Shown: positions 194 through 14,870 of the stretch, in pieces
Layout: each line of letters begins with the position of its first letter
Numbering within the stretch: position 1 is the stretch's first letter
Source of the DNA: a virus
Direction: 5' to 3' (one strand)
DNA: 34,905 bases
Virus record (IMG/VR): IMGVR_UViG_3300009529_000026
Location: 1 to 34,905 of that record
The notes under the pieces: generated by a model
Told to the model about the DNA's origin: nothing
The model's input: the letters and a program-made list of their open reading frames with translations, nothing else
Databases searched by the model: none
Translations under genes and position numbers: made by a program

Positions 194-472
194 GAGAGTA
201 CCTATGGCGGCGACCGGATGCCGTCGGGTCTACATCACAATGACGGCCATAATGTAGCTAACTCCCACCTCCAACGGAGGAGAGACAGCGAGCAGAATCC
301 CACGGCGACGTGGGCTGCGCACCGAATACGATCACCCCAGTTCAGGCACCGTTTGCTTCGGCAACCGTACAGCCGTACTGGGAATCGTACAGGGGGCCAT
401 ATACGGTACTGCCTCGTGCAGTGCCTAGATTGACTCGGCCACTCCTTGCCGATCGTCGCCACAGGTACTCTC
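194..472 (+). ncRNA. Structured RNA unit 2 with a 195-nt folded insert
   Basis: P1 pairs 194-217 with 449-472 (24 positions, two mismatches). GGATGCC is at 216-222, P2 pairs GTCGGGTC (223-230) with GACTCGGC (432-439), TACATC is at 231-236 and CTTGCC at 445-450. The cargo (237-431) has no tRNA halves I can recognise but contains several helices: 268-272/276-280, 299-303/310-314 extended by 292-295/315-318, 327-332/384-389 with 336-341/377-382, and 408-412/418-422. It may be a different RNA cargo or a heavily diverged one. No protein product is likely here. Confidence 0.7.
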
Positions 473-3169: not shown

Positions 3170-3272
3170 ACAACGCATCGCCATCAAACAGTATGGGATT
3201 CAGCGCTCGGGCACCAACTACCTAGAGAAGCTCGCCAAGCTCAACTTCGGGTACGCTCCGGAGGAGGCCTGA
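3156..3272 (+). pseudogene. 38-residue sulfotransferase-like N-terminal stub
   Basis: A short GTG-started frame with a G-rich ribosome site overlaps the previous gene by 14 nt. Its TGA overlaps the next ATG. It encodes YGIQRSGTNYLEKL, which resembles the 5'-phosphosulfate-binding loop at the start of PAPS-dependent sulfotransferases (consensus near SGTxxL). Only this N-terminal segment remains, so it cannot be an enzyme. It is either the remnant of a deleted sulfotransferase or a peptide kept for translational coupling to the following gene. Confidence 0.6.
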
Positions 3273-4132
3273 TGGGCCGCCATGCCAAGTTGTGCATCTG
3301 CGTAAGGTGCCACGACTACCCTGACTTCGTGCTCGACGAGGTGGACTCGATCTTCCATTACTCGACGACGGCGCCGCATGTCATTCTCGCGATTGATCGC
3401 GGCTCGCGTGGCGACCCAGCGAAGCAGAATCAGATCGCCGAGTACGTGAAGGTGCACTACCCCCAGGTTGGGGTCTACAAGTCGGGGTACCAGTGGGGTT
3501 GGGGTGCGGGCATGTACGGTTTGCTCTGCGACGCCTTGGAGTGGGCAGACCAGCACTACAGCTTCGATCACTTCCTGTCACTCGACTACGACGCCCTGTT
3601 CATAGGCGACGGCGCGGACGCGCAGACAATCGAGGACGCGCAGAAGCCTGGCATCGGGCTGGTCGGTACCGTGACTCCGATTGGCAAGACGTGGAAGCAG
3701 ATGTTCGATCGACGCTGGGCACAGATCATGGGCATGACCGGCGGCCGCCAGCCTCCGGCTGGCTGGGAAAGGCACTGTGTGTATGGCGCAGTGATGTGTC
3801 TGACCCGGCCGTGCATCGAGGGCATGCGACAGCTCGGCTACCTACTGGGGCAGTTCCGAGACACACGTAAGTCGCTCGGGATCTCGGATGACCCGTGGCT
3901 CACGTTCCTGGTGAAGACCGCTGGCTACGAGATCAAGAACAACAAGGGCTACTGCTACAACGTTTGGAAGCACCCCGAGGACTACCGGCTAACAACACAC
4001 CGTCGGCCTGAGCTGAAGATCTGGCATCCTGCCAAGATGGCACCCGGCGGCCGCAAGACTGACGAGCGAATGGAGCTGCTCTGCCGGAACTACTTCAGGA
4101 GAAAGCGTGGCAAGAAGGGTATCGGCAAATGA
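3272..4132 (+). CDS. Putative glycosyltransferase (GT-A-like)
   Basis: A 286-residue protein. An N-terminal alpha/beta region ends in a FLSLDYDALFIGDG stretch (about 101-114) that resembles the metal-binding DxD segment of nucleotide-sugar-dependent GT-A glycosyltransferases. The C-terminus is rich in Lys/Arg. The family is not certain. The start overlaps the stop of the 38-residue stub, and its last bases overlap the next gene, a clear GT2 enzyme, which supports a sugar-transfer role. The acceptor and donor cannot be read from the sequence. Confidence 0.65.
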   Translation: MGRHAKLCICVRCHDYPDFVLDEVDSIFHYSTTAPHVILAIDRGSRGDPAKQNQIAEYVKVHYPQVGVYKSGYQWGWGAGMYGLLCDALEWADQHYSFDHFLSLDYDALFIGDGADAQTIEDAQKPGIGLVGTVTPIGKTWKQMFDRRWAQIMGMTGGRQPPAGWERHCVYGAVMCLTRPCIEGMRQLGYLLGQFRDTRKSLGISDDPWLTFLVKTAGYEIKNNKGYCYNVWKHPEDYRLTTHRRPELKIWHPAKMAPGGRKTDERMELLCRNYFRRKRGKKGIGK

Positions 4133-4854
4133 TGATCCTGATCCCAGCGAAGAACGCGCAGAATACGATACGGCGTGCGCTGCTCTCGGTGGCCAACCAG
4201 GTAGACCCGCATTGGACGGCGCAGGTCTTGGTCGATTGTTCAACTACTGATGACACGTACAAGAAGGTACGCCTCGTCAAGCAGGAGCTGAGCTGCGGTG
4301 GCAACATCCATGTGAACATCAGCAAGAGACCAGGGCTGCCGAATGTCTATCGCGAGCTGATCGATAGGGCAGAGCCTCGTGATGGGATCTGTGGTTTCCT
4401 GGATGCCGATGATCGTTTGTCGCCAGGCGCGGTCAAGAAGGTCCGGCCGCATTACCTGACGGACAGGAAGCTGGGGCACCTTTGGTCCCAGTTCGCGCAC
4501 CACCCAAGTGGCGCTCGTGGGTTCTCCACCCACCTGCCCGGGGGGAAGAGTCTTCTGCAGGCGTTCAATGGTGGCTGGTGGGGAGCCCAGCACTTCCGCA
4601 CGTTCAGGAAGAGCGTGTACGACGAGTCGCCATACGATCTGCAGCTTGACATCCCGTATGCGACCGACTTCAACCTGGCGCTCGTGCTCGCGGCCACAGA
4701 CTGCAAGGCAAAGTTCCTGCCAGAGGTCTTGTACTACTACCACCGCACGCCATCGGGAATCACGGTGTCGCGGAAGGGACGGCAGACGCGTGATTGTCGC
4801 GAGCTGCGGAACAGGTTCCAGCGATGGTCCAGGGGGAAACGATGCGCATCCTAG
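4129..4854 (+). CDS. Glycosyltransferase family 2
   Basis: A 241-residue GT2-type protein. The N-terminus (ILIPAKNAQNTIRRALLSVANQ) is the usual first strand and helix of the GT-A fold, and FLDADDRLSPG (about 90-100) carries the DxD metal site (D92, D94). It lacks a transmembrane segment, so it should act in the cytoplasm. It overlaps its neighbours by 4 nt upstream and 13 nt downstream. It probably transfers one sugar of the glycan built by this island. Confidence 0.85.
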   Translation: MMILIPAKNAQNTIRRALLSVANQVDPHWTAQVLVDCSTTDDTYKKVRLVKQELSCGGNIHVNISKRPGLPNVYRELIDRAEPRDGICGFLDADDRLSPGAVKKVRPHYLTDRKLGHLWSQFAHHPSGARGFSTHLPGGKSLLQAFNGGWWGAQHFRTFRKSVYDESPYDLQLDIPYATDFNLALVLAATDCKAKFLPEVLYYYHRTPSGITVSRKGRQTRDCRELRNRFQRWSRGKRCAS

Positions 4855-5771
4855 TCGCACAGATCTACGGCCTCGGGAACGCGATCTTGACAACGCCTCT
4901 ACTGAAGGCCTTGTCTGTGCTCGGTGACGCGGGCAACAGGACCCACGAGGTCCACGTCGTAGCTGACCCCAAACGGAAAGCAGCGATCGAGGTCCTCAAA
5001 ACGTGCCCAGGTGTTAAGAAGATATGGGGCATGGGAGACACGAACGGCATTCAGCGGTACCACTTCGACGTGCTGATCATGTGCTGTGACTACGCACCGA
5101 TCGTGCAGCGGTTCAAGATCCCCAGGGTTGAGTGGGCGTATCTTCGACGCAATCCTGGTGAGGACCGGGTGCAGTGGTTCCAGCGTTGGCCGGTGCACGA
5201 GATGGAGATGGCCTTTGCTGTTGCCAGGAAGTTCGGCTTCAAGTCTCCGATGCCAGAGCCCCATGTGCCTTCGACTAAGGTCGACATCACATACCCTGGC
5301 CCACGCCTCGCGCTCGGCATAGGGTACTTCAAGGGTGACGACTGGAGCAAGAAGAAGCACTGGGGCAATGAGAACTTCGTCGAGATCGCCAAGCGATTCA
5401 GGATGTTCGGCGGCATGTCCTTCCTACTCGGTGACAAGAAGGACTATGAGTGCGATGGTCGAGACATCGTGTCCGAGGCTGGGGACAGCATCATCTCGTT
5501 GTGTGGCAAGCTCGGTCTGCGCGGCACCCTGGGAGCCCTAAAGTCGTGTGACATCTATCTGGGGAACGACACTGGCCTCGCGCACGCGGCGGCCGCCTAC
5601 GGCATGCCTACGCTCTCGATCTTCAAGCCGTGGAACCACAGCTTCGTAAAGAACCGGCCGTACGGAGAGCAGGGCCACTACGCGGTTGAGTGGTCTGGTT
5701 TGGATATCGTTGACGCGGTGTGGCACTGGCTTCAGTACGAAGTCGAGCGGCTACCGGAGAAGAAGAAATGA
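4842..5771 (+). CDS. Glycosyltransferase family 9 (heptosyltransferase-like)
   Basis: A 309-residue protein if started at ATG 4842, which has an AGGGGG site 6 nt upstream and places the conserved MRILVAQIYGLGNAILTTPL segment at the N-terminus. An earlier in-frame start is unlikely. The C-terminal GNDTGLAHAAAAYGMPTLSIF motif is diagnostic of the GT9 GT-B fold, whose known members transfer ADP-heptose to lipopolysaccharide. The length is close to the usual 320-350. In a phage the donor may differ. The neighbouring enzymes suggest a shared glycan product. Confidence 0.85.
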   Translation: MRILVAQIYGLGNAILTTPLLKALSVLGDAGNRTHEVHVVADPKRKAAIEVLKTCPGVKKIWGMGDTNGIQRYHFDVLIMCCDYAPIVQRFKIPRVEWAYLRRNPGEDRVQWFQRWPVHEMEMAFAVARKFGFKSPMPEPHVPSTKVDITYPGPRLALGIGYFKGDDWSKKKHWGNENFVEIAKRFRMFGGMSFLLGDKKDYECDGRDIVSEAGDSIISLCGKLGLRGTLGALKSCDIYLGNDTGLAHAAAAYGMPTLSIFKPWNHSFVKNRPYGEQGHYAVEWSGLDIVDAVWHWLQYEVERLPEKKK

Positions 5772-5800
5772 GATGCCCTATCTGCACGAGGAGCCACTAG
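5768..5800 (+). other. 10-codon mini-frame MRCPICTRSH
   Basis: A tiny frame overlaps the GT9 stop (ATGA) and ends just before the next gene. The sequence MRCPIC resembles the zinc-knuckle start of some bacterial methyltransferases and may be a relic of a deleted gene. Alternatively it only couples translation between the two flanking genes. No function is claimed. Confidence 0.25.
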
Positions 5801-5801
5801 C

Positions 5802-6596
5802 ATGGGCAAGTATGTCATCGGCAGTGGTTGGTACTGCAAGCAACCGGGTGGGACCAGTGGCGCCGTACACGGGCACCCCCAGGTTGGCGAGGCCGTGATT
5901 CGCGGCCTGGAGTGGCACGAGGTTTGGAAGTACTTCCTCTTCAGATACACACAGCCAACAAAGGTAATCGTTATCGACTCGGCGTCCCCCTACAAGCCGA
6001 AGCCAGACCCACGCATCGAGTGGGTGCAACTCGACGAGAACTACCAGTACAACTCGAAGACCCACTTCAACGGTTGGATTCGTGGCTTCATGCTCGGTGC
6101 GGCCTACGCGTGGAACTGCAACGCCAACTTCATCTACGTCGAGCAGGACTGTCTGGTTGTAGGCAAGAACTGGATGAACGCCGTTGAGAGGGCGGCTGAG
6201 GGTGAGTTTCCGCTCTTCGGCCAGAGGTTCCGCAGCCCGGTCCAGCAGAGCTTGGTCTATCTGCCGTACGCATCAATCCAGAAGTTTCTCTACCTGCTCA
6301 CCGCACAGAGGAATGCGATGACCTGTGAGCAGCGGTTCCACAATACGTCCAAGGGCAAGGCTGGCCTTCCATACAAGAACATCCCGTTCGGTGTTGGCCG
6401 CGCCCGTCCAATCGATTGGAAAGCGAAGCACCTCTACGCGCAGCATTGGTCGAAGCATGAGCTGACTGCACTTAGCAAGCGTGAGGGTGTGAACGGGATG
6501 ATCAGGGGTCTACTCGGAGGAGGGGACAATGAAGGTTGTAGCGTTCACACCGATCCGGTTGAACAATGTCAGGCTGCCGAACAAGAATCTGCTTGA
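5802..6596 (+). CDS. Putative glycosyltransferase, GT-A-like
   Basis: A 264-residue protein. NFIYVEQDCLVVG (about 109-121) looks like a hydrophobic strand ending in an acidic ExD metal-binding segment, as in GT-A enzymes. PTKVIVIDS (52-60) fits an earlier strand of the same fold. The rest is unfamiliar. Its last 68 nt overlap the start of the cytidylyltransferase gene. A sugar-transfer role is inferred from these motifs and the flanking genes. Confidence 0.6.
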   Translation: MGKYVIGSGWYCKQPGGTSGAVHGHPQVGEAVIRGLEWHEVWKYFLFRYTQPTKVIVIDSASPYKPKPDPRIEWVQLDENYQYNSKTHFNGWIRGFMLGAAYAWNCNANFIYVEQDCLVVGKNWMNAVERAAEGEFPLFGQRFRSPVQQSLVYLPYASIQKFLYLLTAQRNAMTCEQRFHNTSKGKAGLPYKNIPFGVGRARPIDWKAKHLYAQHWSKHELTALSKREGVNGMIRGLLGGGDNEGCSVHTDPVEQCQAAEQESA

Positions 6597-7173
6597 TCTT
6601 GGTGGCATGCCGCTGCTGAACTGGGCGATCAAGAGTGTCGACTGCCTGAAGGATGTCGACAACTACATCTGGTGCAGCAAGCCATCGATCGTCAAGAGCG
6701 TGATCTCAGACAAGGTCCGGTTCATGCGGCGGCCGAAGACTCTCGACGAGGACAATGTACTTGGAGAGGATATCTACCGATCGTTCGCGAGTAGGGTCGA
6801 GGCGGATGCGTACCTCCTCTACCACGTCACGTCACCGCTGATGAAGCTGAAGTACCTGCGCGAAGCAGTCGATGCCGTGACACAGAAGGGATACGACAGT
6901 GCGTTCTCTGTGTTCCCGGTCCAGACGTTCTGCTGGTTTGGCGGCAAGCCGCTCAACTTCCAGTTGGGTGCGATGCCGCGAACGCAGGACTTGAAGCCGG
7001 TGCAGCAGTTGACCTCCGGCTTCTTCTTGTTCACACGTGAGGTGATCATGCAGGGTGGTTGCCGGATCGGCCAGAAGCCAAAGGCCATCGAGGTCGACTA
7101 CCCATCGTCGATCGACATTGACTACAAAATAGACTACGACATCGCCCGGCTCCTGGTGGAGGCTGCCGCATGA
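6529..7173 (+). CDS. CMP-sialic acid synthetase-like cytidylyltransferase
   Basis: A 214-residue protein with the acylneuraminate/KDO cytidylyltransferase fold. The N-terminus VAFTPIRLNNVRLPNKNLLDLGGMPLL keeps the R-LP-KN signature of the nucleotide-binding loop. LLYHVTSPL (about 96-104) matches the conserved T/S-SP strand, and SIDIDYKIDYDIA near the C-terminus is the usual DID-D motif. It would activate an acidic nonulosonate sugar with CTP. No gene for making that sugar (NeuB or NeuC type) is in the window, so the precursor may come from the host. The overlap with the next gene is 4 nt. Confidence 0.85.
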   Translation: MKVVAFTPIRLNNVRLPNKNLLDLGGMPLLNWAIKSVDCLKDVDNYIWCSKPSIVKSVISDKVRFMRRPKTLDEDNVLGEDIYRSFASRVEADAYLLYHVTSPLMKLKYLREAVDAVTQKGYDSAFSVFPVQTFCWFGGKPLNFQLGAMPRTQDLKPVQQLTSGFFLFTREVIMQGGCRIGQKPKAIEVDYPSSIDIDYKIDYDIARLLVEAAA

Positions 7174-7928
7174 AAGTTTCCTATTTCACGACTTGTATGG
7201 GCCGGGTCTGCGACCTGGTCCAGGCCCTCCCCGAATCGATCAAGGGCCACAAGTGTGATCCGAACGTCGAGTTCGTTCTTCTGAGCTACAACGACAAGTC
7301 AGGCATGGCTGATTGGGTGCATATGAACTTGTGCGCCGAGTTAGCATCCGGGCGTGTGGTCTTTGCCGAAACAACTGAGCCTGAGTACTACCGTTTTGGT
7401 CATTCCCGTAACGTGGCGGCGCTACTCTGTTCAGGTGACATCATCTGTTCCCTTGATGCTGACAACATAGCCCCTGAGGGATTCTCCAGACATCTCCGGG
7501 TCCTGATGCAGTCGTTGAAGTTCCCTCTGATCACTTGTGACAAGAAGATCCGCCGAGGCTCTCGTGTCTCGTCGGGTGAGTGCTCTGGCAGAAAGGCTTA
7601 CAAGAAGAACCAGTTCGTTGAGATCTTGCGCGGCTATGACGAGAGGTTCGACGGGTGGGGCGCCGATGATGGCGATATCACCATGCGGGCGATCACTGCT
7701 GGGTTCAACGAGGTCCACTGGGAGCACTCCTACTACAAGCTCGTACCGAAAAGTTCGCAGGTGCTGTTCACACAGGACCCCAAGCGCATGTCTTCCTTGG
7801 CGACTAACCGTGTCTACCGGGACGGCAACATGGCCGAAGGTGTGGTCGGGGCTAACGTTGGGAAGCCATGGGGCGTTGCCAAGGTGAAGATCAACTTCAA
7901 GAAGATGGTCGACGTAGGAAGCCCCTAA
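7170..7928 (+). CDS. Glycosyltransferase family 2, galactosyltransferase-type C-terminus
   Basis: A 252-residue GT-A enzyme. IICSLDADNIAP (about 91-102) contains the DxD metal site. GYDERFDGWGADDGDITMR (about 155-173) is the conserved acceptor-side motif of the glycosyltransferase C-terminal domain shared by beta-4-galactosyltransferases and polypeptide GalNAc-transferases. It starts within the stop of the cytidylyltransferase gene and its stop overlaps the next start (TAATG). It probably acts on the same glycan. Confidence 0.85.
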   Translation: MKVSYFTTCMGRVCDLVQALPESIKGHKCDPNVEFVLLSYNDKSGMADWVHMNLCAELASGRVVFAETTEPEYYRFGHSRNVAALLCSGDIICSLDADNIAPEGFSRHLRVLMQSLKFPLITCDKKIRRGSRVSSGECSGRKAYKKNQFVEILRGYDERFDGWGADDGDITMRAITAGFNEVHWEHSYYKLVPKSSQVLFTQDPKRMSSLATNRVYRDGNMAEGVVGANVGKPWGVAKVKINFKKMVDVGSP

Positions 7929-8668
7929 TGCACAAGCAGACAGCGGCCGCTTGGTTGGAGATGCGTAGACAGATCACCTGGTACGACAGGCTGATGTCGC
8001 TGAAGAATGCCTACCGTAGTTTGGCAGGGACCTGCTTCGTCATAAGCTGCGGACCGTCTACGTCGGAGGTTCTTGCGAACAAGGAGTTCCGAAGAGCCTT
8101 GAAGTCGAAGCTGCTCGTGTGCATCAAGGGAGCAATCGACTACTACCCGAGACACTGTGACTTCCACATCTACAACAGTGACTACTCGATCGATGGCCGC
8201 CGGTACGAACATCCGTACACGACAAGGATCACGGTCCACAAGGACGCCTACAAGATGGGCTCTGACATCCACTTTCCCCTCCACCCGGAGCAGGGTGCCT
8301 CGGAGGGAAAGACGGGTCTGTCCGCAACGATATCAGCGCAGCACAACTGGGCTGACTGGGAGATCTCGAAGTCGTACAAGAGACCCTGGGGGCCTGGGGT
8401 GATGTCGGAGATCGGAATCTTTCTGCCAGTTCACCTAGGGGTGAAACGCATCGTCGTCATCGGTTGGGATCTCAATCCTAATGAACTGCGCCACTACTAC
8501 GACGACAGCGTCAAGAACCTGGAGAAGTACAAGCGCGAGGGCAAGTTGATCAGCGGATCGATCCCATCGTTGCTCGCCTGGTTGGAGACCATTGGTGTTG
8601 AGTTGGTGCTCTGCTCGCCGCGCTCAGCCCTGCCAATACCACAGGTCAGAATGGAGGACATACTGTGA
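7928..8668 (+). CDS. DUF115/sialyltransferase-like protein
   Basis: A 246-residue protein started at ATG 7928 in a TAATG overlap. Residues 34-44 (GTCFVISCGPS) and the later VKRIVVIGWDLNP segment match the first strand-loop (xGxGPS) and second strand of the DUF115 (motility-associated) and bacterial GT42-type sialyltransferase folds. With a CMP-sugar synthetase two genes upstream, transfer of a sialic-acid-like sugar is plausible, but the two families cannot be separated by eye. No membrane segment is seen. Confidence 0.65.
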   Translation: MHKQTAAAWLEMRRQITWYDRLMSLKNAYRSLAGTCFVISCGPSTSEVLANKEFRRALKSKLLVCIKGAIDYYPRHCDFHIYNSDYSIDGRRYEHPYTTRITVHKDAYKMGSDIHFPLHPEQGASEGKTGLSATISAQHNWADWEISKSYKRPWGPGVMSEIGIFLPVHLGVKRIVVIGWDLNPNELRHYYDDSVKNLEKYKREGKLISGSIPSLLAWLETIGVELVLCSPRSALPIPQVRMEDIL

Positions 8669-9963
8669 GGGTCTTATTCTTCAAGGTGCTGCAACGAAAG
8701 CAGTGGATCAGCCACCCATATAAGAGTCGCTACCTGGGCTTCACTCACCTGATCGATTACCTGCTCTCGAAGCAGCCCGAGCACGAGATCTTGTATGCGA
8801 CTCGGCTGGGCGAACTGAAGCAGATGAAGCCGGACCTGATCGCGATCTCGTCTGTCACCGAGTCGTACAACGACGCTATGTACACGGTCGAGTGGGTCAG
8901 GAAGGGTGGCTTCACCGGCCCAATCATCTTAGGAGGGCCACATGTCACGGCATTGCCTTGGACTATCCCGAGCAAGGCTGACTGTGCCGTCGTCGGTGAG
9001 GGTGAGGTCACGTTCGAGCAACTCGTGCGCGAGTACTCGAAGAACAGAAACCCGGACCTGAGTCAGATCCCAGGTCTTGCGTACTATCGAAAGATTCGCG
9101 GGTTGCCAGCGCAATTCACCATGACTCCGCCGCGAACGCCAGTGGTGCTGGACACATTGCCGGTCGACGTGACGCGAGATCCGAAGGTACTCATGGACAT
9201 CTCGACGGTTCGAGGCTGCCCCTTCCGGTGCGCTCATTGCGTGGAGAGACCAACGCAGGGCGAGCCACGGTTCCTCTCGGCCGAGCGCATGTATGCCCTG
9301 ATGAAGAGTCGTGTGGAGGCCACGGGCAATCCCAACTTCTTCTTCCAGGACGATACGTTCCTGGCCGGTGGAACCCAGAGGATCAGGGAGCTGCACAAGC
9401 TCATGTCCGACGACAACACGCTAGGCAAGTACAAGATCCGATCGATCAGCCTGAACGCCAACCTGGTCACACGTGAGAACCTCACGCTGATGAAGCAGAT
9501 TGGTTGCACGAACTTCGGCATGGGCTGCGAGTCGTTCAACCCGCGGGTGCTCGGGGACATGAAGCGCGGCTTCGTCAAACTGAAGCATCTGGACACCACA
9601 ATCAAACTCTGCACTGAGATCAAGGTGCGGCTCGGTGGCTCCCAGGTCTATGGATTCCCTGGTGAGACCGAAGCTGAGATGCTGGACAGCATCGCGATCG
9701 TGAAGGAGTACGAGCGCACGAGTGTGTTCCAGCACTGGGTCATCTTCGTCTGCACGCCGCTGCCTGGGAGCGAGTTGTGGTTCTGGGCCAGAGACCAGGG
9801 GGTCGTTGCCGACGCCATGGACTGGAGTCGTCTGCGCATCGATGGGAACATGCAGTACTTTAAGTCACCATGGATCTATCTCAACGAGGAACAGATACCG
9901 AAGCAGCGATTCATCGAGCTGCTGAAGAAGAACGGTCAAATGCCGAACGGCCATTTCATCTAG
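8665..9963 (+). CDS. B12-binding-type radical SAM enzyme
   Basis: A 432-residue protein started at GTG 8665 with a 4-nt overlap. Residues 1-125 form the Rossmann-like cobalamin-binding domain (IILGGPHVTALP, VVGEGEVTFEQL). The canonical DxHxxG cobalamin ligand is not obvious. C185-P-F-R-C189-A-H-C192 is the CxxxCxxC site for the 4Fe-4S cluster of radical SAM enzymes. VYGFPGETEAEM is the usual C-terminal motif of this subfamily. Known members methylate or rearrange unactivated carbons. In this island the substrate may be a sugar, peptide or nucleobase. Confidence 0.88.
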   Translation: MRVLFFKVLQRKQWISHPYKSRYLGFTHLIDYLLSKQPEHEILYATRLGELKQMKPDLIAISSVTESYNDAMYTVEWVRKGGFTGPIILGGPHVTALPWTIPSKADCAVVGEGEVTFEQLVREYSKNRNPDLSQIPGLAYYRKIRGLPAQFTMTPPRTPVVLDTLPVDVTRDPKVLMDISTVRGCPFRCAHCVERPTQGEPRFLSAERMYALMKSRVEATGNPNFFFQDDTFLAGGTQRIRELHKLMSDDNTLGKYKIRSISLNANLVTRENLTLMKQIGCTNFGMGCESFNPRVLGDMKRGFVKLKHLDTTIKLCTEIKVRLGGSQVYGFPGETEAEMLDSIAIVKEYERTSVFQHWVIFVCTPLPGSELWFWARDQGVVADAMDWSRLRIDGNMQYFKSPWIYLNEEQIPKQRFIELLKKNGQMPNGHFI

Positions 9964-9971
9964 GGGGACAG

Positions 9972-10571
9972 ATGCCACTCGAACGTCAGATGGGAAAGAC
10001 ACTCGCGGAGATCGAGACTCTCCACAAGGAGCGGTACTCGTTCGCGATGCCTTATGTGAAGGACAAGATCGTGGTCGACGCGGCCTGCGGCTGTGGCTAT
10101 GGGAGCTGCATGCTGGCCGGGACTGGCGGCGCCAAGACGGTTCACGGTTGGGATCGTGCCCAAGAAGCGATCACACACGCGAAGAGCTACTTTGATCGCT
10201 CCAACACTCAATGGGCAGTCCGAGATCTCGATGTTGATCCCTGGACGCTGCATGGGTCGCAGGCTGACGTTTTGGTGAGCCTGGAGACGATCGAGCACCT
10301 CAGTTCAACGATCATGGTGTCACTGCTGAAGATGCGCGGCCTCCTGGCTCCTGGAGGCATTCTTGTTTTCTCCCACCCAGCCCACGAAAAGGGCCGTGGC
10401 AACCACTTTCACAAATGGTTTGACTTGGACCCAGTGTTGGTGTTGAATGTTACGAAACAAGTCGGATTCGAGGTCGTCGATCACTGGGAACAGGTTCCCG
10501 GCCACAAACGTTACACCTATCACCTAGTTGCTGCGAGGAAGGTGCCATGCCAGGAATCAAGCTCGACGTAG
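9972..10571 (+). CDS. SAM-dependent methyltransferase
   Basis: A 199-residue class I methyltransferase if started at ATG 9972, which has a TAGGGGG site upstream. Motif I is VVDAACGCGYGS (34-45), DVLVSLETIEHL is the motif II/acidic strand region and LLAPGGILVFSHP is motif III. The length fits the Methyltransf_11/23 type. The substrate is unknown. It sits between two radical SAM genes and overlaps the next methyltransferase gene by 25 nt. Confidence 0.85.
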   Translation: MPLERQMGKTLAEIETLHKERYSFAMPYVKDKIVVDAACGCGYGSCMLAGTGGAKTVHGWDRAQEAITHAKSYFDRSNTQWAVRDLDVDPWTLHGSQADVLVSLETIEHLSSTIMVSLLKMRGLLAPGGILVFSHPAHEKGRGNHFHKWFDLDPVLVLNVTKQVGFEVVDHWEQVPGHKRYTYHLVAARKVPCQESSST

Positions 10572-11041
10572 GTGGTGGTCGGAACCCGGAATCGGGATTC
10601 AAGGTCCTCGATATAGTTTCGGCGCCTCACGTCGATTATGTGTGCCCAGCGTGGGACACACCACTCGAAGACAGGTCAGTGGCGAGCCTCCGGGCTCGCC
10701 ATTTTCTTGAGCACCTCACTCTTGCCGAGGCCGTCGCCACACTAAAGGAGTGGCACCGGATCATGCTACCTGATGGTGGTTTGGACGTCACGGTCCCCAA
10801 CATCCTCTACCATGCCCAACAGTTGGTGATGTCAGGGCAGTCTGAGTTTGTGTCAGAATCGAACTTCGACCACGCGATGGCTGGTTTCTATGGCTGGCAG
10901 AAGAAGGGTGAGACCATGGCCCACAAGTGGGGGTACACACCGAAGACTCTGGTGAAGCTCTTCTTGGATTCCAAGTTTGATGTGGTCCTGATGCCATGCC
11001 GTGCGTGTGACATTGTAGTGCACGCGAGGAAACCAAGATGA
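10547..11041 (+). CDS. Methyltransferase-like protein (short)
   Basis: A 164-residue protein. KLDVGGGRNPESGFKVLDI is a glycine-rich motif I followed by the acidic strand, and FLEHLTLAEAVATLKEWHRIMLPDGG matches the later core of class I methyltransferases. It resembles the small predicted SAM-methyltransferases often found in polysaccharide clusters. It overlaps both neighbours and probably belongs to the same operon. Confidence 0.8.
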   Translation: MPGIKLDVGGGRNPESGFKVLDIVSAPHVDYVCPAWDTPLEDRSVASLRARHFLEHLTLAEAVATLKEWHRIMLPDGGLDVTVPNILYHAQQLVMSGQSEFVSESNFDHAMAGFYGWQKKGETMAHKWGYTPKTLVKLFLDSKFDVVLMPCRACDIVVHARKPR

Positions 11042-12084
11042 AGGTCCAACTCTACATGTGTGGTGGCGAGCACCCGACCTCGGAGATCCCACTTGGTGTG
11101 GGCTATCTGCTCACCAACACGCTCGATGCCAAGCCAGTGTACGTGAAGGACTGGCGCGACCTTCATGGCGCCGACATCGTTGGGTTGTCCACAAACGCCT
11201 GGGGCCTTTCGGAAGCCTTTGACATTGCCCAGCGTCTCAGTGCCGCCAACGTGAACAGTAGGATCGTGCTCGGTGGCCAGGGAGCGCTGTGGCGGAAACT
11301 AGAGGAGTTCAATAGGCATCCGTTCCACAACATCGTCAGGGGAGACGGTGAGCGTGCACTGAACGCAATCATCATGGGCCACGTCGCGATGAAGACAGTT
11401 GTGGAGAAGCGGATCGAAGACATCGACACCCTGAAGTGGCCGGAGCGTGGTGTATGTGGTTCCTCGGTTCCGATCATCACGTCTCGTGGCTGTCCTTACA
11501 ACTGTGCCTTCTGTACATCACGCGCACAGTGGGGCAAGCCAAGGCTCCGGTCGGTGGCGAGCCTTGCAGACGAGATCAAGTATCTCCTCAGGCGATACCC
11601 ACACATGCAGGAGCTGTACATTCTCGACGACCTGTGGGCCTATCCCGAGGAACGATTCGACGAGTTCTTCGCGTGGTGGATGGGGCATGAACTGAACAAG
11701 AAGCTCGCGCTGCGGGGGTTCATCCGATCGAACATGGCGACGAAGAAGCTCTTCGTCCGCATGAAGAAGATGGGCTTCAGCAGGATCAGGTTTGGCGCCG
11801 AGACTGCGAGCCCGCGACTCCTGAAGCTGGTCAACAAGGGAGCGACGGTCGAGGACCACCAACGAGCTGTGGATCTGGCTGCCGAAGTAGGTCTTCCGAT
11901 CACAGCCTCGTTCATGTATGGTCTACCTGGTGAGACCAAGGAGGACCTGGCGCTGACTGCAAAGTTCCTGTCGAAGAACAAAGGTAAGTTGCGGCGCGAG
12001 GGCTGGTACAAGTTCAGGGCCTTCCCAGGATGCAAGCTGTGGGACGGCGAGAGCCCACTGAAGTACGACATGAGAGTGAGGTAG
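11038..12084 (+). CDS. Second B12-binding-type radical SAM enzyme
   Basis: A 348-residue protein. The N-terminal Rossmann-like domain (IPLGVGYLLTN, IVLGGQGALW) resembles cobalamin-binding domains but is short, at about 125 residues. C152-P-Y-N-C156-A-F-C159 is the radical SAM cluster site. MYGLPGETKEDL and a terminal FRAFPGCKLW segment match the subfamily. It differs enough from the 8665 gene that the two are not a recent duplication. It starts in a 4-nt overlap with the previous methyltransferase. Confidence 0.87.
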   Translation: MKVQLYMCGGEHPTSEIPLGVGYLLTNTLDAKPVYVKDWRDLHGADIVGLSTNAWGLSEAFDIAQRLSAANVNSRIVLGGQGALWRKLEEFNRHPFHNIVRGDGERALNAIIMGHVAMKTVVEKRIEDIDTLKWPERGVCGSSVPIITSRGCPYNCAFCTSRAQWGKPRLRSVASLADEIKYLLRRYPHMQELYILDDLWAYPEERFDEFFAWWMGHELNKKLALRGFIRSNMATKKLFVRMKKMGFSRIRFGAETASPRLLKLVNKGATVEDHQRAVDLAAEVGLPITASFMYGLPGETKEDLALTAKFLSKNKGKLRREGWYKFRAFPGCKLWDGESPLKYDMRVR

Positions 12085-12087
12085 ACC

Positions 12088-12894
12088 ATGCCACTGGGCG
12101 AAGGATACTGGTTGAATGCCAGGACTGGCGAGGAGATCGAGGTGTGGGAGCACGCCAAGACTGTGTTGGAGAATCCCACCAAGTTCGGGCTGCATCCCGA
12201 TGCGGTCGCTGACAAGAGTCAGGCTGTCTACGCTAAGGACCCCGGCATGCGGCGACAATTGCTTACGGACGTCATGAAGCGTGGATGGATCAGGGTCCGG
12301 TCGTACAAGGGTCGCAATGTGTTCGAGACCGCCGGGGTGAACGACGACGCGCTCTATTCGATACTGGAGTTCGCTCAGGCTCACAACATGTGGGACAACG
12401 ATCGGGTGTTGATCAACGATGTCACCAAGCCCGAGGGTCATGGCTCCATGTCGATGACGGTGGGCCAGCTGCAGAAGCAGTTCGGGATGGGTGAGCAGTT
12501 GGTCAACGTTCGCAAAGTCGGTAGGTGCACGGCCACTGTCTGGACTGATCTGATAGAGGGAGTCGATGGGCCAGAGATACAAAGACTCCGCGAGCTGCTG
12601 GTGTACGCGGTCCACTTGATTCTTGACCCGTCGCACGTTCCCTGGTCGGTCACCGAGACCAGGGACAACCAAGACCAGATGAAGTTCGAGATCGTTGCGT
12701 ACAACTACAGCATGCTCACTGAGAGCGAGCTGCAGCCAATGCCAGTGTACGGCCTGAAGACTCCGATGGAGCATCTGGACAAGATGATGCAGGGTGTGAA
12801 CAACGTGTTGAACACCAGCATCAAGCGAGAATTACCTGGCAAGTTCTCTGCTGGCGTGATCGAGGTAGAGCAGCACACAATCACGAGGCTGTGA
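12088..12894 (+). CDS. Unrecognised phage protein
   Basis: A 268-residue protein with no motif I recognise. The first 80 residues contain LNARTGEEIEVWEHA, a basic helical stretch and KRGWIRVRSYKG, which look like a small alpha/beta domain. The middle is mixed and the C-terminus (MEHLDKMMQGVNNVLN) is helical. It starts 3 nt after the radical SAM stop, and its stop overlaps the regulator gene. Its place at the end of the modification operon gives no firm clue. Confidence 0.7.
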   Translation: MPLGEGYWLNARTGEEIEVWEHAKTVLENPTKFGLHPDAVADKSQAVYAKDPGMRRQLLTDVMKRGWIRVRSYKGRNVFETAGVNDDALYSILEFAQAHNMWDNDRVLINDVTKPEGHGSMSMTVGQLQKQFGMGEQLVNVRKVGRCTATVWTDLIEGVDGPEIQRLRELLVYAVHLILDPSHVPWSVTETRDNQDQMKFEIVAYNYSMLTESELQPMPVYGLKTPMEHLDKMMQGVNNVLNTSIKRELPGKFSAGVIEVEQHTITRL

Positions 12895-13181
12895 CATGCA
12901 CAATCGCAAGAAGGGGACGGCGAGTGCGTCAGCGGCAGGATACACCGGGGTGCAAGAGACTCCTCCAACTCCTTGGACGTAAGCTCGCCGAGTATCGCGA
13001 GACTCTTGGAGTGACTCAGACTGAGCTGGCCCGGCGAGTCCGGGTCTCGCGCTTTCAGATGTGCAAGCACGAGGCAGGCTCGGCCGAGATGCCAGTGACT
13101 AGGTTCTACAAGATCTGTGAGGCGCTGAGCATCAATCCAGCGGATCTCATGAGGTCAGTGTCACGCTCGATGAAGCCATAA
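12891..13181 (+). CDS. XRE/Cro-CI family transcription regulator
   Basis: A 96-residue protein with a helix-turn-helix of the XRE type at about 29-89: LLGRKLAEYRETLGVTQTELARRVRVSRFQMCKHEAG...FYKICEALSINPADLM. The first 25 residues are basic and may be disordered. The GTG start overlaps the previous TGA. Four near-palindromic 16-bp sites lie directly downstream, the likely operators, so it may regulate the next gene and possibly its own operon. It has no ligand-binding domain. Confidence 0.85.
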   Translation: MTCTIARRGRRVRQRQDTPGCKRLLQLLGRKLAEYRETLGVTQTELARRVRVSRFQMCKHEAGSAEMPVTRFYKICEALSINPADLMRSVSRSMKP

Positions 13182-13189
13182 CAGGAGGG

Positions 13190-13198
13190 TTATCCACA
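13190..13198 (+). promoter_or_regulatory. DnaA-box-like sequence
   Basis: TTATCCACA is identical to the strong bacterial DnaA-box consensus. It overlaps the first 16-bp operator-like palindrome. A single box does not make an origin, and the match could be a by-product of the TGTGG-type repeats. Confidence 0.35.
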
Positions 13199-13315
13199 AG
13201 ATGTTGTGGTCGTGCAGAAGGGACCACAACAAAGTGTGCTTCAAAACGGGGAGGACGACCAGAAACGTCCACAACATCTTGTGGTGGCCAGAAAAACGAC
13301 CACAACAAGATGTGG
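13194..13315. promoter_or_regulatory. Cluster of four 16-bp operator-like palindromes
   Basis: Sites lie at 13194-13209 (CCACAAGATGTTGTGG), 13223-13238 (CCACAACAAAGTGTGC), 13269-13284 (CCACAACATCTTGTGG) and 13300-13315 (CCACAACAAGATGTGG). The first and third are exact reverse complements of each other. Half-site CCACAA recurs with TTGTGG or a variant. Spacings from start to start are 29, 46 and 31. Directly downstream of the XRE regulator gene, they are probably its binding sites. Confidence 0.75.
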
Positions 13316-13467
13316 AGCACGCGGAGAACGGCTGATTCGACCAATTGCACTAAGGACCAGATAGCGAATATCAAGACTAGGGTAGTTGTAGAAGAAGGTG
13401 TCGTAGAAGAAGAGTAATAAAAAGAACGGTGGAGTGTCTTCAGAACAGTGAAGGACTTGAAATAGCT
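13316..13467 (+). promoter_or_regulatory. AT-richer leader with a weak promoter candidate
   Basis: This stretch is richer in A and T than its surroundings and holds no gene. TTGCAC (13345-13350) with AATATC (13368-13373) at 17-nt spacing is a weak sigma70-like candidate. A short repeat, GTAGAAGAAG, occurs twice near 13388-13412. Transcription of the 13468 gene from here, under control of the operator cluster, is inference. Confidence 0.35.
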
Positions 13468-14073
13468 ATGGGAGAAACAGAAGAAGTGGTTGGGAAGCAG
13501 GAGAGCCAAGAGCTGTTGGCAGTCCACCGGCTTCTTAATAATCGATTAGAAACCATTCCTTGGCACGTGTCGAACGTGGGGCCAGAGCTGGCGGAGCTTC
13601 GCACCTGGGAGCATCGATCTCTTCTTCAACTCCTTTGCAAAGGAGACCAGGTCTTCTGTGCGTACGATACACTGGGGATACTGACACATCTGTGTCTGAG
13701 CCTGAAGCACCCGACAGTCTACCACTCTGTTCGAGACCTCTACTCATTTGCCGAGGTGCCAAAGCTCAGGCTGATCTGCGATCCCCTCCACATGCCACCG
13801 AAGCACGAGTTCTTCTACCACGACAAGTACGACGTCGTCATGAGCACGTTCCTGTTCTCAGTCGGGCAGGACCTGGAGGAGAAGGCCTACACCTTCCTGG
13901 CAACCATGGCCCGCATCCTGAAGCCAGGAGGAAGACTGATCGTCAGTTACTGCGCCAAACAGCCTGACACCGTGATCGAAGTTGCCGAACGGATCGGAAT
14001 GTTCTTCAATGTTATCGAGTCACGTTCGGGTGCCAAGGGACATTGTGGGGTTCTGTCGATGGGAGCGAGCTAA
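13468..14073 (+). CDS. Methyltransferase-like protein
   Basis: A 201-residue protein if started at ATG 13468. A GTG at 13429 in frame would add 13 residues. The C-terminal half reads DKYDVVMSTFLFSVGQDLEEKAYTFLATMARILKPGGRLIVSYC, which is the motif II to III core of class I SAM methyltransferases. A clear motif I glycine loop is missing; LLQLLCKGDQVFCAYDTLG may be a degenerate version. It may be an inactive or divergent enzyme. Its stop overlaps the next start (TAATG). Confidence 0.65.
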   Translation: MGETEEVVGKQESQELLAVHRLLNNRLETIPWHVSNVGPELAELRTWEHRSLLQLLCKGDQVFCAYDTLGILTHLCLSLKHPTVYHSVRDLYSFAEVPKLRLICDPLHMPPKHEFFYHDKYDVVMSTFLFSVGQDLEEKAYTFLATMARILKPGGRLIVSYCAKQPDTVIEVAERIGMFFNVIESRSGAKGHCGVLSMGAS

Positions 14074-14870
14074 TGCCTGCAAGCAAGAAGCCACCAATCG
14101 GTGTGGCCATCCTGGCGTACGAAGGATTCGATGATCTCGTCGCGGCCGTCCGCGCCGTGAAGTTCAACACCACTATGGCCTACCAGCTCTTCGTCTTCGA
14201 CAATTCCGAGCAGACAAAGATGATCCGTGAGTACCTGAAGGAGTGCCACAAGGATGTGGTCCTTCTGTGCGCGAAGCGCAACGTTGGCTGCTCGGTGAGT
14301 AGAAACATCATGCTGTCCGAGTACCTGAAGCGGTACCCCGGTGGCGAGTTCCTCTGCATCATGGACCAGGATGTCCAAGTGAAGCAGGGCTGGCTACGAG
14401 CCATGGTCCAGGTTGCTCGCGCTCACGAGGACTGTGGCATCGTTGCGTGGCCGCTCGCCAACAGATACAACCCGGTCACTACCAAAGGTGTGGTCTCAGA
14501 GGTTGCGTCGGTCTGCAACCTCCACCGCGTGAAGGCACTGCTCGGTATCCAAGAGCGATGGGATGGCCCTTGGGAAGAGCGCATGTTCATGCACAAGTTT
14601 GACTCGCTGATCTGCCAGCGACAGAACCTGCTCGGCTGGCGCACGTACCTTGTGCTGAGTGAGTACGCCCCAAACGTCAGCTGGCCGGACCAACCTGCCC
14701 TGATCAAGCACAACCACCCCCACGAGGGCGTGCGCAGGAACCCGAAGTGGAAGGCTATCTTTGATCGCTCGAAGAGGATCTATGCCGACATCATGAAGTC
14801 CGAAGGCTGGCAGCAGTGGCAGCCTCCCGCGCCCTACCTGAAGTACAGCGGACCCAAGCGAGGACGCTGA
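14073..14870 (+). CDS. Glycosyltransferase family 2
   Basis: A 265-residue GT2 protein starting in a TAATG overlap. The N-terminus IGVAILAYEGFDDLVAAVRAV and FVFDNSE are the first strands of the GT-A fold. LCAKRNVGCSVSRNIM matches the conserved N-G-x-xx-RN segment, and FLCIMDQDVQV (94-103) holds the DxD metal site. It is the last gene of the modification island before the virion genes. Confidence 0.85.
   Translation: MPASKKPPIGVAILAYEGFDDLVAAVRAVKFNTTMAYQLFVFDNSEQTKMIREYLKECHKDVVLLCAKRNVGCSVSRNIMLSEYLKRYPGGEFLCIMDQDVQVKQGWLRAMVQVARAHEDCGIVAWPLANRYNPVTTKGVVSEVASVCNLHRVKALLGIQERWDGPWEERMFMHKFDSLICQRQNLLGWRTYLVLSEYAPNVSWPDQPALIKHNHPHEGVRRNPKWKAIFDRSKRIYADIMKSEGWQQWQPPAPYLKYSGPKRGR

Follow-up and report, generated by a model that had tools for sequence, protein, structure and literature searches.

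The window, by which we mean the whole stretch of DNA analysed here, is a single virus record of 34,905 nt with head and tail genes of the myovirus type, and close to its start (about 29-1058) it carries five Y RNAs arranged in tandem. Y RNAs are scaffold RNAs, which in bacteria attach to the ring protein Ro60. The five were scored with a Y detector pattern, RATGCY, 6-12 nt, TAC ... TTG[CT]C, in which both the outer and the inner arms are complementary, and which we ran on the window together with 120 further loci; the units of the window ranked at the top of this combined set, with unit 5 tying the best score obtained outside the window (42.5). All five units lie on the plus strand. Units 1 (29-186; detector score 59) and 3 (479-632; 56.5) are YrlA-type Y RNAs that match the Rfam YrlA family at 40-178 (40.2 bits, E 4.6e-7) and 491-623 (47.4 bits, E 3.8e-9) respectively, both matches having been recovered at a relaxed threshold and being below the curated cut-off. 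In both units the model aligns the 3' tRNA half ahead of the 5' half, which accounts for the “tRNA halves” described in an earlier note on this DNA without invoking circles: they make up YrlA's tRNA-like domain, which is permuted. Unit 4 (653-753; 65.5) is a short, YrlB-like Y RNA with almost no cargo and a weak match to the Rfam YrlB family (661-745, E 2.7). Unit 5 (924-1058; 42.5) consists of a Y stem enclosing a tRNA-like domain (962-1032; Rfam tRNA 42.3 bits) with a CAT anticodon loop and an acceptor stem that looks weak; this domain is unpermuted, unlike that of YrlA. Unit 2 (about 188-478; 60.5) is a Y RNA whose cargo is not a tRNA.

Several other features accompany the cluster. Units 4 and 5 are separated by a tRNA-Met (CAT; 761-835) and, at about 839-910, by another tRNA-like sequence whose anticodon loop likewise includes CAT but which drew no call from ARAGORN. 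A candidate terminator 3' of the cluster on the plus strand (1237-1274) combines an 11-pair stem with a T run, a similar number of such elements being expected by chance. The ORF adjoining the cluster (1343-2209) displays CxxC motifs at a 33-nt period that appear DnaJ zinc-finger-like by eye and has no match in Pfam or PHROG; a search by protein for relatives, using the ORFs that adjoin the cluster, found none. Further along, the block at 3272-12084 codes for glycosyltransferases, a cytidylyltransferase, a methyltransferase and two radical SAM/B12-binding proteins; it adjoins the structural genes and is a phage-borne sugar-modification cassette.

The anatomy of unit 2, all parts of which are given here on the plus strand, is well supported. 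Its outer Y stem is formed by arms at 194-217 and 449-472, with 22 of 24 pairs by inspection, and a repeat search recovered the same region as an inverted repeat (188-217/449-478) with 83% complementarity. The outer stem is followed by an internal loop of the Ro60 type, with ATGCC on its 5' side (218-222), a motif found in all five units and as AUGC in the YrlA consensus, and CACTCCTTG on its 3' side (440-448), with the CTTG motif common to the other units and the YrlA consensus. The inner stem (223-230/432-439) contributes eight further pairs. The Y-stem score of unit 2 is the second best of the window and the 120 loci, the best score outside the window being that noted above for the tie with unit 5. 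By its stem and AUGC/CUUG-type loop, unit 2 is thus classified from sequence as a phage-encoded Y RNA of the bacterial type in the broad sense; as neither a tRNA nor a YrlA match was found by Rfam in 188-478 at E<=10, we do not class it as a YrlA. The 195-nt structured insert that had been described at 237-431 is real, and its limits are better placed at about 231-431, where it is held by the inner and outer stems. This cargo module opens with GACGGYCNTAANGTAGCKA. TACATC (231-236) is retained by each of the five units and also by the relatives from other phages.

Within the module lies a 23S-like core, GACGGCCATAATGTAGCTA (242-260), a diverged copy of 23S 1918-1936, and a GGCC at 245-248 pairs with a second GGCC at 395-398 to form helix P1. 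Between the two strands are three hairpins: P2 (257-289; 257-259/287-289, 262-264/282-284 and 268-272/276-280), P3 with a GCGA loop (292-318), and P4 (321-394; 321-323/392-394, 327-331/385-389 and 336-341/377-382). The helices originally pointed out, TACGA/TCGTA and CCCAGT/ACTGGG, are the second and third of the P4 pairings. A further hairpin at 405-425 is present in the minimum-energy fold. Against dinucleotide shuffles, the fold of the insert (232-435; -75.9 kcal/mol) has z = -3.6, none of 200 shuffles reaching it, and that of the complete unit (188-478; -131.9 kcal/mol) has z = -6.1. The non-tRNA nature of the insert is borne out, in that ARAGORN finds no tRNA in unit 2 and Rfam returns nothing within 231-431 at E<=10. 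The related suggestion of a distinct non-coding RNA survives insofar as the insert is structured, not a tRNA and set in the frame that the tRNA-like units also use; it is, however, the cargo of a Y RNA rather than a separate element.

Scans of contigs from viruses, made with the 5' motif of the Y signature and with the YrlA family, led us to a homologue of this cargo in a phage contig, IMGVR_UViG_3300031669_000085 (hereafter L163), whose Y RNA begins at 2862. The two inserts align with a score of 81, against a maximum of 37 in 1000 shuffles, and their structural alignment shows 64% identity over ungapped columns. Of the 49 pairs compared, 31 are unchanged, 3 have one-sided changes, 13 have double compensatory changes and only 2 are broken; this alignment was made by hand with guidance from the structure and is hence biased in its favour, but the contrast is large with a control in which one strand was slid by 1-3 columns (at most 2 double changes and at least 26 broken pairs). 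The inner Y stem and P3 each have three compensatory changes, P2 has one along with one broken pair, and P4 has five along with one broken pair; the P1 pairing is kept as GGTC/GGCC, and the hairpin at 405-425 is absent from L163. The two phages also have Y RNA sequence in common, with unit 3 showing 81% identity over 73 nt, and no convincing similarity was found between the proteins of the window and those of the L163 contig. Elsewhere in L163 (1482-1660) there is a Y RNA-like unit whose cargo resembles half of a class II tRNA (Leu/Ser-type) in permuted form.

The cargo of L163 opens with CAATGACGGTCCTAAGGTAGCGA, which includes 18 nt identical to E. coli 23S rRNA 1919-1936; for a query of 187 nt against 2,904 nt, a simple calculation gives about 8e-6 such identities by chance. 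At the corresponding position unit 2 has CAATGACGGCCATAATGTAGCTA. Two more Y RNAs with this core were found by a core scan, in L288 (IMGVR_3300010430_000377; TAACTATGACGGTCCTAAGGTAGCGA) and L306 (IMGVR_3300034782_000062; TAACGGTCCTAAGGTAGCGA, 20 nt exact to 23S), and their core match is in part selected because both were found by searching for it. The longest exact 23S matches in L163, L288 and L306 are 18, 18 and 20 nt, all within 1917-1936 (H69-H70) and all at the same position, directly after TACAT. Across the payloads of four phages that we surveyed, exactly one Y RNA per phage has the 23S-type cargo, and the other payloads have 0-11 nt exact to 23S. Unit 2 by itself is not significantly similar to 23S: its longest exact match is 10 nt and falls outside the core region of 23S, and its best local alignment (1912-1942, score 28), though it lies at the place where the relatives match, is equalled by 71 of 200 shuffles. 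Its membership in the class therefore rests on its homology to L163. Its cargo also aligns with that of L288 at a score of 38, above 1000 of 1000 shuffles, and its alignment score with the L306 cargo is not significant against shuffles.

Beyond the core and the next hairpin the four cargoes diverge in sequence and length. In unit 2 and L163 the hairpin after the core occupies the position of H71. The core is usually closed in this class by a GGYC/GGCC helix; a GGCC further along pairs with its GGYC in unit 2, in L163 and, by reading, in L306, with no clear GGCC partner in L288. On the homology to L163 we regard the cargo of unit 2, as judged from sequence, as a diverged member of a class presenting 23S 1917-1936, i.e. 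the 3' side of H69 into H70. The resemblance to domain IV helices 69-71 extends over the core, the hairpin in the place of H71 and the GGYC/GGCC helix as in H69; the H69-like helix, however, has its two strands in reverse order relative to 23S, the 3' side of H70 (UUCCUU) is missing from the Y-borne cargoes, and no 23S counterpart was found for P3 and P4.

Several other matches were set aside. L165, L303, L304, L305 and several more core-scan matches proved by inspection to be coding or non-RNA chance matches, and the record of the Paenibacillus phage Pd_22F match contains ordinary 23S sequence. The core also matches the site of the homing endonuclease I-CeuI; we rejected this explanation as the core sits within a covarying Y RNA and unit 2 diverges from the site. 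Scanning bacteria with a short Y+GACGGYC pattern revealed no core among the bacterial loci checked from the matches listed, and a more specific pattern gave no match in 396 and 282 genomes from the phyla of G025 and G026. Directly after the 23S-type Y RNA of L288, on the minus strand at about 900-1320, about 400 nt look structured; this region contains another core-like string, TTACGGCCCTAAGGTAG, and has no Rfam match at E<=0.5.

The same core is also seen, apparently in intergenic positions, in RNAs of six phage contigs (L167, L290, L292, L293, L296 and L301) in which no Y stem was detected; for instance, L167 1376-1496 and L292 510-630 present a core corresponding to 23S 1917-1940 followed by a hairpin. 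Each of the six aligns with 23S better than 300 of 300 shuffles, a signal that comes mostly from the core used to find them. Outside the core, L167 is in register with 23S 1963-1995 (10 of 300 shuffles being as good), and the other five show no convincing 23S alignment. Their mutual scores (L292/L167, 111; L290/L292, 89) indicate that at least L167, L290 and L292 form a family. L167, L290, L292 and L301, and more weakly L293 and L296, share with unit 2 both the core and the next hairpin, but differ from it in lacking a detected Y stem and in a mutual similarity that reaches further.

Among known RNAs, unit 2 is comparable to YrlA (RF02553) in its basal stem, the AUGC/CUUG internal loop and the conserved CTAC/TTAC step; YrlA is found beside Ro60 genes, and true YrlA-type units are present in unit 2's own cluster. 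It differs from YrlA in its cargo of about 200 nt, which is 23S-related and devoid of the permuted tRNA-like domain with its D, T and acceptor arms. The YrlB-type short Y RNAs likewise have a Y stem without a tRNA-like domain, but carry little or no cargo, as opposed to the large multi-helix cargo of unit 2. Rfam gave no family for the cargo, nor did we find it described in the searchable literature, key Y RNA papers and reviews lying outside that search.

With respect to the protein partner, no Ro60 is encoded in the 34.9-kb window, possibly a fragment. G007, the large relative closest to the window at 145 kb in length, has no TROVE/Ro60 and no clear Y RNA in the 140 kb scanned with the Y detector. 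The L163 phage, by comparison, encodes a Ro60 at 12727-14352 (vWA_Ro60 6.5e-16, TROVE 6.4e-6) that adjoins a YrlA at 14366, and the L306 phage encodes one at L316 9718-11304 (vWA_Ro60 3e-14), where roughly 13 Y RNAs are arrayed around it. In both phages the Ro60 gene lies within an array of Y RNAs. The presence of TROVE proteins in jumbo phages and of YrlA in phages has been noted previously (PMC7824862; PMC7765460).

In YrlA the basal stem binds Rsr, the Ro60 orthologue, and the tRNA-like domain binds PNPase (PMC8394870). By analogy, we infer a function for unit 2 in which its basal stem and AUGCC/CUUG loop would serve as a docking handle for Ro60 (Rsr), supplied by the host or from elsewhere in the phage genome. 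At the end opposite this handle, the multi-helix module that replaces the tRNA-like domain would offer a surface imitating the H69-H70 part of 23S rRNA, and might thereby recruit or sequester a factor that normally recognizes this part of the ribosome, with a possible effect on rRNA or ribosomes; such action would likely parallel the recruitment of PNPase by the tRNA-like domain of YrlA. The partner might be a modification enzyme, an assembly or recycling factor, or a nuclease. Modification enzymes acting near H69-H70 include RluD, RlmD and TlyA. Helix/loop 70 is important in subunit association, touches both tRNA and ribosome recycling factor, and is also a target of MazF (PMC5408214). That unit 2 is a Y RNA docked on Ro60, with a cargo that imitates domain IV of 23S and so recruits or decoys a 23S-binding factor, is the reading we favor, and we consider it reasonably probable.

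The most serious alternative, to which we assign a minor but real share of probability, is that the cargo is a conserved structure with a function unrelated to 23S, its 19-nt core being a recurrent RNA building block or, in unit 2, a chance resemblance. The unit 2 core indeed departs from 23S at four positions and alone is not significant, and for P3 and P4 one sees no obvious counterpart there; yet three relatives are exact over 18-20 nt at the same place after TACAT, and no other payload behaves in this way. Another possibility is that the cargo acts as a decoy for ribosome-targeting nucleases or toxins attacking H70, such as MazF-type enzymes that cut UUCCU. MazF-mt3 and MazF-mt6 do cleave 23S in helix/loop 70 at this sequence (PMC5408214), and of the six phage RNAs that lack a detected Y stem, all but L296, which has AAGTTCC, retain AAATTCC. 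The Y-borne cargoes, including that of unit 2, are without UUCCU (ACTCCC, CGCTCA, TGTCCC and TGTTGC), and hence such a decoy suits the Y-less RNAs better; for unit 2 we rejected the MazF version on this ground and deem decoys of this kind improbable.

The proposal that the units belong to an element delivering circular RNA, through a permuted intron or tRNA-like processing, drew on the permuted tRNA halves seen in unit 1 and in unit 3. It did not hold up: these units match YrlA, in which the permutation is the normal arrangement (PMC8394870), and no Rfam family of group I or II introns or self-cleaving ribozymes has a match anywhere in the window. We therefore dismiss the group I or permuted-intron reading of the units and find a circular-RNA element very unlikely. 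We give even less credence to a decayed tRNA, a decayed Y RNA or a random spacer. It is true that this is the longest insert among the five units and that its length varies between phages, but the 13 compensatory pairs against 2 broken ones, the fold z-score of the insert and the lack of any tRNA match by ARAGORN or Rfam all speak against decay. Structure prediction and a homology search, among the checks proposed in the earlier note, yielded a multi-helix fold and a homologue that keeps the pairing, the outcome that by the note's own standard supports a distinct RNA.

Returning to the Ro60-docked mimic of 23S, the known cargo of bacterial Y RNAs is tRNA-like and links Ro60 to PNPase. If a second recurrent cargo copies a universally conserved and functionally central part of 23S, the “tether” idea becomes directly testable with a different target, and it would be a hint that phages turn Ro60 RNPs on host ribosomes or rRNA-binding factors. 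More tentatively, and with somewhat less than even confidence, we posit that phage Y RNA arrays might be sets of interchangeable Ro60-docked adaptors, each with a different mimic (permuted tRNA, a whole tRNA-like domain or 23S H69-H70), steering one ring protein to several parts of the host translation apparatus.

Y RNA arrays such as that of L306/L316, where one phage with its own Ro60 packs about 13 of these RNAs into 14 kb, are unusual by themselves. In the same region tRNAs number more than 20, and the Y RNA array includes a gene for a SpoU-type RNA methylase (L316 14018-14647). Additional candidate Y RNAs, whose cargoes are large at about 160-300 nt, are seen at L163 15074-15256, L306 9930-10238 and 12712-12887, and L288 8890-9118 on the minus strand. 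These cargoes have no 16S or 23S match beyond chance length, and that at L306 9930-10238 includes tRNA-like pieces.
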